From Desulfitobacterium metallireducens DSM 15288 (GTDB taxonomy: Bacteria; Bacillota; Desulfitobacteriia; Desulfitobacteriales; Desulfitobacteriaceae), in the NCBI RefSeq assembly GCF_000231405.2, contig NZ_CP007032.1, forward strand, positions 1,178,001 to 1,242,000: a stretch of 64,000 nt of DNA, given 5' to 3'. Both the position numbers and the translations under genes were made by a program. Position 1 is the first letter of the stretch. Each line of letters opens with the position of its first letter. Positions 54,430-62,187 of the stretch are shown here, piece by piece. The notes under the pieces were generated by a model, which made no database searches, was not told the origin of the DNA, and was given only the letters and a program-made list of their open reading frames with translations.

Positions 54430-54690
54430 AAAGGCTTAGCGCCCTAAAGGGACGAGCTAAGCCTCGTGGTACCACCCTCATTGCCAGTTCAATATAATGA
54501 ACCGACCACTTGAATCTCCTGACTAATTAGGAATACCTGATAACGGGGGTATCCGGCGTTCCCTACTACACGTTCAAGAACGCAACTCCTGAGTGAATTT
54601 CCGTTCCAGTAAGCACCAAGGCTTTCAGTCTATGGCCTAGGTTCCCTGAGGGTCTGGGTTACGTATACTCTCATTCATCGTTATTAACAC
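54430..54690 (-). promoter_or_regulatory. T-box leader controlling pheA
   Basis: On the minus strand the leader runs from about 54690 to 54430. It has the canonical T-box core AGGGTGGTACCACG (near 54467-54480), an upstream stem I region with GAAAGCC and a candidate TTC specifier (54595-54597), and a terminator (54435-54470, stem GGCTTAGC/GCTAAGCC, then a T-run) that competes with the antiterminator. TTC would call for tRNA-Phe, fitting pheA. Confidence 0.93.
54595..54597 (-). promoter_or_regulatory. Candidate specifier codon (TTC, Phe) of the T-box
   Basis: A TTC triplet followed by A on the minus strand lies in the part of stem I where the specifier is expected. Phe fits the downstream pheA gene, but the alignment was made by eye. 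Confidence 0.5.
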
Positions 54691-59690: not shown

Positions 59691-59933
59691 TTGTTTAAAA
59701 CCTTATGGCGTTTATTGGTTGTTGTTGTTTTTATCTTACTTATAAAAAATACATTTACTTCTCAAACTCAAGCGTATATTATTTGGCCGGAAAATTCGAA
59801 TTTCGTCGAACAAGTAAAATTTCAAATGAATCGACTTCAAGAAAATGCCCAAGATTTACCGGCCAATGTTGAAATGGAAATTAAACGCTTGTGGAAGGAT
59901 CTAAAACCAGGTAATGACGCTAAACTTGTTTAA
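59691..59933 (+). CDS. Small single-pass membrane protein, 80 aa
   Basis: A TTG start at 59691 gives a short protein with one N-terminal hydrophobic helix (LWRLLVVVVFILLIKNTF) and a soluble helical tail (NFVEQVKFQMNRLQENAQDL, then VEMEIKRLWKDLKPG). No family was recognised. AAAGG lies about 12 bases upstream, so the start is only moderately supported. It lies between ahcY and a HesB-like selenoprotein gene. Confidence 0.6.
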   Translation: MFKTLWRLLVVVVFILLIKNTFTSQTQAYIIWPENSNFVEQVKFQMNRLQENAQDLPANVEMEIKRLWKDLKPGNDAKLV

Positions 59934-60043: not shown

Positions 60044-60370
60044 ATGGTTGGTATTACAGAAATCGCAGCCCAGAAGGTGAAAGAGGTTATTGCAAGTCAG
60101 AATAAAGATAATTCCTACTTGCGTCTCTATGTCGCTGGCTTTGGCTGAGGAGGGCCGAATTTCGGCATGACTCTGGATGAGTCAAAGAATGAAAATGATA
60201 TTGTAGATGAAGGTTTTGGAGTCACGATCCTTACTGAGGATAAACTGACAGAATATCTTGAAGGTGCAGTTATCGATTATGTAGAGTCTCAGTATGGTGG
60301 TGGGTTCGAAATCAAAACGAATAATCCTGGTGGTGGCTGTGATTCGGGTTGCAGCAGTTGCGGGAGTTAA
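60044..60370 (+). CDS. HesB-like selenoprotein (IscA/HesB superfamily)
   Basis: The frame from ATG 60044 runs through an in-frame TGA at 60146-60148 to a TAA at 60368-60370, giving 108 residues. N-terminal ITEIAAQKVKEVIASQ and YLRLYVAGFG precede the TGA (residue 35), followed by GGPNFGMTLDES. In IscA/HesB proteins a cysteine stands at this point, so selenocysteine replaces the first cluster-binding cysteine. The C-terminus ends in a GGGCDSGCSSCGS cluster. HesB-like selenoproteins are known in some anaerobes. A short GCCGA/TCGGC hairpin starts 5 bases after the TGA. AAAGGAG lies upstream of the start. Confidence 0.9.
60149..60185 (+). promoter_or_regulatory. Candidate SECIS region of the HesB-like selenoprotein
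   Basis: The sequence right after the TGA folds into a GCCGA/TCGGC hairpin (about 60154-60166), with room to extend. Bacterial SECIS elements occur at this position. Confidence 0.55.
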
Positions 60371-60376
60371 TTCATT

Positions 60377-60412
60377 AAATAAAGAGCTTTTTAAGCTCTT
60401 TATTTATTTTGC
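60377..60412 (+). terminator. Intrinsic terminator of the HesB-like selenoprotein gene
   Basis: A perfect 13-bp stem (60377-60389 with 60393-60405) is followed by T-rich sequence. Confidence 0.85.
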
Positions 60413-60602
60413 TTATATGGTGTTTATATTAATCTTTTAGGGTATATCCGCAAATTTGGGGAATATTAGAGATTAGCAGATATTTAATCTTAGGTTAATA
60501 TTTCTAAACGTATCGTCATGATTGCATTCATTTTTAGAGATTCTCTTGAGTATGAATAGATAGAGGCCAGTTTTAAAGTTTCATATAACCATGTAAAATA
60601 GA

Positions 60603-60608: not shown

Positions 60609-60614
60609 ATTTAT

Positions 60615-61218
60615 TATTCCTTTGGGCAATGGTGCGTTATTCTAGTGCACGAAATGGCAATCGAAGGCGGGCCTAAGAATCCGCCGAGGGCATACCGATG
60701 AAGTTCCTGGTGGTGGCTTACGACGCCCAGTCGAGGGTTGCTGCTGGGAGTTAAGGTTCAGGGGGATCCGCAATGGCATGCGGGCGCTACCCTTAACCGT
60801 GGAGGCCTAAGTACGTGGTTCCTTTAGGGGTTACGGCTTGGGGTATGAACCTGCATTAGGAAGGAACTTAGTGCAGCGTAGCCTGCCTTGAGGTGGAAAA
60901 GTTGGGAAGGTGAGAGGGACTTGGACTATGTTGGCCGATATAGTTCAGTCTGCCGGAAATTCTTTTCTGCAAAAGAGGCTAGATTGTTAAGGAGTGTCAA
61001 GGAAAACTTCTAGAACGATAATCAGTGAGGATTGAAGTGCGGTCTCAGTGGCGATCAAGTTCTGAGTGCTGGTAACACCTCAGGTTAAGAGAAAAGGGAA
61101 ACCGCCTCAAGGGAAACCTGGGGATCTTAGCGGGAAAACCTACTTGACCTAAGCCGTAATATTTTTTCACTGATGTCCTAAAGCCCAAAGGCACACCTCT
61201 CTTATGAGAGGTGTTTTT
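60615..61218 (+). ncRNA. Large structured non-coding RNA candidate (about 600 nt; OLE-class possible)
   Basis: The block has no open reading frame of useful size, is clearly richer in G+C than its surroundings, and contains many short inverted pairs, for example GGCGG/CCGCC (about 60666-60684), GTTAAGG/CCTTAAC (about 60750-60800), a long pairing of CTAAGT-GTTCCTT with AAGGAAC-TTAG, and GACTATG/TATAGTTC. It is bounded by a promoter-like -10 box and by a terminator at 61193-61218. Length, host group and isolation from genes are compatible with OLE RNA of anaerobic Firmicutes. RNase P, tmRNA and group II intron signatures were looked for and not found. Confidence 0.65.
61193..61218 (+). terminator. 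Intrinsic terminator after the large RNA
   Basis: ACACCTCT (61193-61200) pairs with AGAGGTGT (61207-61214), followed by a T-run. Confidence 0.9.
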
Positions 61219-61296: not shown

Positions 61297-61432
61297 CTGC
61301 TGAATTCTGTAGGGTTAGATCACTTGTGAGCTGAGACTACAGAGCGGGGGATTTCCTATGGGGTGAATCGCAAGTGATTGCGTAGGGCTTTACACCTTGA
61401 TGCCCGAATCCGTCAACTAACCTCGTAAGCAA
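61297..61432 (+). promoter_or_regulatory. Cyclic di-AMP riboswitch (ydaO-yuaA)
   Basis: The conserved blocks are present in order: CTGAATTCTGT near the 5' end, GCGGGGGATTTC, GGGGTGAATC, GTAGGGCTT, then GCCCGAATCCGTCA and CTAACCTCGTAAGC. This class normally lowers expression of cell-wall hydrolase and potassium-transport genes when c-di-AMP is high. It lies 20 bases before the ATG of an NlpC/P60 gene and no terminator separates them, so control may act on ribosome access. Confidence 0.95.
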
Positions 61433-61452
61433 AGAAAGGTGGATTCCGTTTA

Positions 61453-62187
61453 ATGATTTCATCCTCACGTAAAGTGTGGGTGGGCAGTATGACTTTGTCC
61501 AGCGTACTGCTATTCAGTAGTTTAATGGGTGCACATTACCCTGCCCAGGCTGCTGAACCTACGACTAGTTTGAAGACAATAGTATTATCATCAAACTCTG
61601 TGTCTGGATATTCAGCTTCAGCAACACGCAACAAAATAATTGCTTCAGCGGGAAAAACTCAGACTAAACAGGCTGAGCCTACTCCAAAAGTCCAAGTTGC
61701 CGTAGCTGAAGACAGGAAGGCAGAAGTTGCAAAGACTGAAACGAAGAAAGAAACTGCAAGTAAGCCAAAGCAAGTTGCAAGTGCAACTAAACAACAAACA
61801 CAAGTATCTCGGAGTAGCAGTACTGATTCTTCCAAATTGGTAAGTAACGCAATGAGCCTTATTGGTACCTCTTATGTATTTGGAGGAACAAGCCGGAGCG
61901 GTTTTGATTGTTCTGGTTATACCCAATATGTGTTTAAAGGGTCAGGAATAAGTTTGCCACGTACTTCTTACGCTCAATTTGGAGTAGGGTCTGCAGTTTC
62001 TCGCAATCAATTACAACCTGGAGACTTGGTGTTTTTCTCGACTTATGATCAGGGAGCTTCCCATGTTGGAATCTATGTCGGTGGAGGAAGTTTCGTTCAT
62101 GCCTCAAACAGTGGAGTTAGAACCACAAGTTTATCGGAGAGTTACTATGCTTCCCGTTATATGGGAGCAAGAAGAGTCACAAACTAG
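61453..62187 (+). CDS. Secreted NlpC/P60 cell-wall hydrolase
   Basis: A signal peptide (VWVGSMTLSSVLLFSSLMG, cut near AQAAEP) precedes a low-complexity Lys/Thr/Ala-rich linker (KTETKKETASKPKQVASATK). The C-terminal NlpC/P60 domain, about residues 130-244, has the catalytic cysteine in RSGFDCSGYTQYVF, the histidine in SHVGIYVGGG and the third residue in FVHASNSG. Such enzymes cut gamma-D-glutamyl-diaminopimelate bonds in peptidoglycan. No LysM or SH3 domain was seen. It is under a c-di-AMP riboswitch, matching the usual partner of this class. Confidence 0.96.
   Translation: MISSSRKVWVGSMTLSSVLLFSSLMGAHYPAQAAEPTTSLKTIVLSSNSVSGYSASATRNKIIASAGKTQTKQAEPTPKVQVAVAEDRKAEVAKTETKKETASKPKQVASATKQQTQVSRSSSTDSSKLVSNAMSLIGTSYVFGGTSRSGFDCSGYTQYVFKGSGISLPRTSYAQFGVGSAVSRNQLQPGDLVFFSTYDQGASHVGIYVGGGSFVHASNSGVRTTSLSESYYASRYMGARRVTN

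Follow-up and report, generated by a model that had tools for sequence, protein, structure and literature searches.

The locus and its transcription signals

Towards the end of the window (the 64,000-nucleotide stretch of Desulfitobacterium metallireducens DSM 15288 DNA that was analysed), a gene-free block lies between a HesB-like gene, recognised by its Pfam match, and a c-di-AMP riboswitch followed by an NlpC/P60 hydrolase gene (Table 1). The first-pass annotation of this DNA had named the HesB-like gene and the riboswitch correctly, and had described the block as GC-richer than its surroundings, about 600 nt long and free of coding frames, with borders that prove right to within a few bases. 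The longest ORF lying wholly within it is of 49 amino acids, and GC content peaks there at 55%; in the 300-nt windows it is 30-35% immediately 5′ of the block and 41-44% on the 3′ side.

Table 1. Features of the OLE locus, with positions counted from the first nucleotide of the window
Feature	Position	Strand	Basis or remark
T-box leader	54445..54687	-	109 bits
Gene of an 80-aa protein	59691..59933	+	no Pfam match
HesB-like gene	60044..60370	+	Pfam PF01521
Terminator-like hairpin 3′ of HesB-like gene	60376..60406	+	sets the gene apart from OLE
Promoter-like site TTTAAA-16-TAAAAT, TG directly 5′ of the -10 box	60572..60599	+	consensus scan
OLE RNA (RF01071), full length	60613..61195	+	cmscan, mapped pairs, covariation
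Intrinsic terminator of OLE: 9-bp stem, 4-nt loop, T-tract	61193..61218	+	hairpin spans 61193-61214
c-di-AMP (ydaO/yuaA) riboswitch, neighbour outside OLE	61319..61446	+	cmscan 75.5 bits, gathering score 38
NlpC/P60 hydrolase gene 3′ of the riboswitch, neighbour	61453..62187	+	Pfam PF00877, E 2.9e-34

The terminator-like hairpin ends the HesB-like gene, and OLE is therefore probably a transcription unit of its own. The clean terminator noticed at the first reading is indeed found at the end of the block, and most relatives have a hairpin and a T-tract at the same position, with a changed stem sequence. The promoter-like -10 box is also present and a similar box (TACAAT/TAAAAT) precedes OLE in most members of the family, but taken alone the site does not rise above chance, the promoter-consensus scan having returned 3 sites for 2.6 expected from shuffles.

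Codon 35 of the HesB-like gene is an in-frame TGA (AGFG-U-GGPNFG), with the hairpin-like sequence GCCGAATTTCGGC after it. The same TGA occurs in the HesB-like gene of another OLE locus (L026), and the host genome has a tRNA-Sec (67.7 bits). The gene very likely encodes a selenoprotein, a member of the HesB-like family already known (PMC1794560). A search of viral contigs with the HesB-like protein gave no relative. The 80-aa protein encoded further upstream has a membrane-anchor-like start, and relatives of it are encoded near OLE in loci L003, L006, L020 and L026. A T-box leader lies on the opposite strand.

Identity and structure of the OLE RNA

The gene-free block is an OLE RNA, a class already catalogued. 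The cmscan search against Rfam proposed by the first-pass annotation matched the block with the model RF01071 at 409.5 bits (E 7.1e-118), against a gathering score of 50, and the match is end to end, covering positions 1-616 of 616. A scan of the 3.18-Mb genome with the model found a single OLE copy. Counted to the end of the model the RNA is 583 nt long, and ~606 nt with the terminator included, and its predicted fold is more stable than those of 100 of 100 dinucleotide shuffles (z -2.98). The original guess of an OLE RNA, possibly a diverged one or else a new class, is thus borne out in its main part by the model match, by the standard pairs and by the compensatory changes described below. 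The copy may be called diverged in that its score lies below most and one small hairpin is absent, but it is a full-length match to the model of a known class, which rules out a new one.

When the Rfam structure is mapped on the host RNA, both positions are occupied in 146 pairs, of which 134 are standard. The copy lacks thirteen pairs of the model, including those of a small hairpin at model positions ~424-435. Covariation was assessed in an alignment of 44 OLE sequences from the class, made up of the host copy and its relatives, where 87.6% of the paired cells can pair. Changes on both sides affect 82 of the 146 pairs (576 cells), compared with 50.9 pairs and 180 cells in a shuffle control that is inflated by the relatedness of the sequences; none of 500 shuffles reached the observed value. 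Sliding the partners by 1-3 columns lowered pairing to 38-47%, with at best 46 pairs changed on both sides; this control favours the tested structure, which is the Rfam consensus fitted to the host copy. Compensatory base changes, whose absence among relatives had been named at the outset as evidence against a structured RNA, are abundant in this alignment, which strongly supports the predicted secondary structure.

The small hairpin is absent from the aligned OLE copies of f1, the Desulfosporosinus family to which the host belongs, and of f3, a neighbouring family of the same order, with the exception of L002, and present in the canonical loci L027-L031. The joining strands GUUAA and GUGGAG, tied to the kink-turn of OapC, are invariant in the 44 sequences. 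A cryo-EM study exists of the OLE RNA dimer of Clostridium acetobutylicum (PMC12286853) and, reading it onto the host sequence, these strands would correspond to J4a/5 and J6/7.

The oapA partner gene and the displaced ole gene

A profile built from the five OapA proteins of L027-L031 found one strong match in the host genome (G000:C1:2047422-2048012, E 2.7e-65). The five proteins have a DxxxD motif in common, which reads DIIGD in the host OapA. The OapA-like membrane protein gene that the first-pass annotation had suggested looking for is therefore present, but it lies 808 kb from ole instead of adjoining it. Adjacency of ole and oapA is the commonest arrangement among OLE carriers and is not obligatory. 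Canonical loci of the class have the order ispA-(DUF212)-ole-oapA-dxs (L027-L031), and families f2 and f4 retain it. The host oapA locus reads ispA-DUF212-oapA-dxs, with 34 nt separating DUF212 from oapA at the expected place of ole. Likewise, oapA stands between DUF212 and dxs without a gap for ole in 25 of the 25 f1 and f3 loci that were inspected (L130-L154), and many genomes of these two families, the host's included, have ole near an ahcY-like gene, mrp or uvrC. The simplest and likely reading of this gene order is that ole left the ispA-DUF212-oapA-dxs operon once, in a common ancestor of f1 and f3, and came to lie between the ahcY-like gene and uvrC.

Both ole and oapA are present in 42 of 83 genomes of the class and both are missing from 37, so that 79 of 83 agree (Fisher p ~1e-18, relatedness ignored). 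The discordant genomes, two of each kind, comprise three incomplete assemblies (76-86%) and one that is 95% complete. Genome G044 has the two genes and its congener G045 has neither, and genus g4 is mixed. The host family thus provides a natural experiment on ole and oapA: the genes are unlinked and yet retained or lost jointly, a pattern that speaks for partners in function rather than for mere inheritance of an operon. The pattern further suggests that ole suffices as a stand-alone gene under its own promoter. Two OLE genes, L002 and L026, and one oapA occur in a draft genome (G041) of 78% completeness and 5% contamination; L002, which retains the small hairpin, has a different context and may lie on a contaminant contig. 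Among the papers that a literature search covered, which did not include the first descriptions of OLE from 2006 and 2011, none names OLE RNA alongside either Desulfosporosinus or Desulfitobacterium.

Among the other protein partners of OLE, the likely OapC (YbxF) is an 83-aa protein of the L7Ae family whose gene directly follows rpoC, a candidate assigned by gene order; a second L7Ae protein, adjoining infB, was taken as YlxQ. OapC is present in ~45% of OLE carriers. OapB (YbzG) was not found in a KOW-family search, which a diverged OapB could escape: the two KOW proteins detected have positions that fit ribosomal protein L24 and NusG, and no ORF lies between map and infA. OapB is absent from ~40% of OLE carriers (PMC11332333). 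The genome also encodes a CNNM-domain protein of 459 aa (L157, G000:C1:1736378-1736959) that resembles MpfA in sequence. MpfA tends to be missing where OLE occurs (PMC11332333), and its coexistence here with OLE and OapA is contrary to the reported anticorrelation.

We give a probability of about 0.98 to the overall reading that the block carries the host's ole gene, whose free-standing OLE RNA works with the membrane protein OapA. A novel RNA class, large and structured but resembling OLE only in size and host, is excluded for practical purposes because the RF01071 covariance model matches end to end (E 7e-118). Long invariant stretches common to the host copy and the canonical L027-L031, as well as the presence of the same partner gene, oapA, speak against such a class, whereas the score under most OLEs, an oapA that does not adjoin and the one missing hairpin would fit it. 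Nearly as improbable is a non-functional copy that has been decaying since the move. Apparently defective ole genes are known from rare organisms without OapA (PMC11332333), but in the host oapA is intact, 134 of 146 mapped pairs and the invariant blocks are retained, promoter and terminator are in place, and co-occurrence with oapA is kept across the family; a pseudogene was rejected with structure and partner both intact.

The riboswitch neighbourhood and comparison with known OLE RNAs

A c-di-AMP riboswitch lies 117-407 nt 3′ of OLE in 17 of 26 loci of the family, an NlpC/P60 gene following it in all 17, and three more loci have one within 1.4 kb. None occurs within 1.5 kb of OLE in the f3 loci scanned. 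Among the matches listed for 399 genomes of the phylum, no adjacent pair was found outside the family, and the riboswitch link was rejected as a general rule for OLE. The adjacency was probably inherited by shared descent from one event and gives weak support to the proposed connection between OLE and c-di-AMP (PMC11332333). The Breaker group has voiced, as speculation, the idea that OLE is a c-di-AMP synthase ribozyme (PMC11332333). The neighbouring riboswitches might reflect such a c-di-AMP-linked ribozyme, but we consider this improbable: the genome contains five of these riboswitches, the terminator of OLE precedes the adjoining one, and confinement of the adjacency to one family, shared neither by the loci of the neighbouring family nor by the listed phylum matches, fits a single inherited arrangement. 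Only slightly less doubtful is a functional tie between the displaced ole gene and the adjoining c-di-AMP-controlled cell-wall hydrolase; if true, OLE and c-di-AMP signalling would converge on one stress response in the host family.

Of the bacterial RNAs that lack a known activity, OLE is one of the largest, and a scaffold or regulator at the membrane is its most likely role, one that we hold somewhat more probable than all others together. Transcription of ole would start at a promoter of its own and stop at its own terminator, giving a free-standing RNA of ~600 nt, which folds into the OLE structure, as model match and covariation show, and probably dimerises. OapA proteins, made from the distant gene, would hold the RNA at the membrane as they do in other species, and OapC, placed at the kink-turn, would join OLE RNA and OapA into the OLE ribonucleoprotein. 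Membrane binding and stress phenotypes of OLE are documented (PMC12265935, PMC11332333, PMC9723947), and the membrane ribonucleoprotein model derives from work in Halalkalibacterium halodurans (PMC12265935, PMC9723947, PMC12054373), where roles of the complex in cold, alcohol, high Mg2+ and poor carbon sources were shown. It may by extension aid the host in surviving these same stresses.

The canonical OLE RNAs (L027-L031; Halalkalibacterium halodurans) and the host RNA are alike in full-length structure and invariant sequence blocks, and canonical hosts are likewise anaerobic Firmicutes with oapA in the genome. The host copy shares 61-63% identity with L027-L031 and scores 409 bits against their ~520; scores are 380-440 bits in the host family and its neighbour, whereas over half of the 284 genomes sampled in the phylum that bear OLE reach 488-583 bits. 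Unlike the canonical genes, the host ole lies far from oapA, has its own promoter and terminator and lacks the hairpin. The OLE RNAs of the Desulfosporosinus family and of f3 (L003-L026, L032-L044) are closer, with 74-86% identity and minor sequence changes only; their genes are likewise unlinked in the loci examined and they miss the same hairpin, the f3 loci differing from the host by having no riboswitch nearby. The OLE RNA described here is thus ordinary in kind, and its displaced gene, with co-occurrence kept, is a modest addition to what is known of the class.
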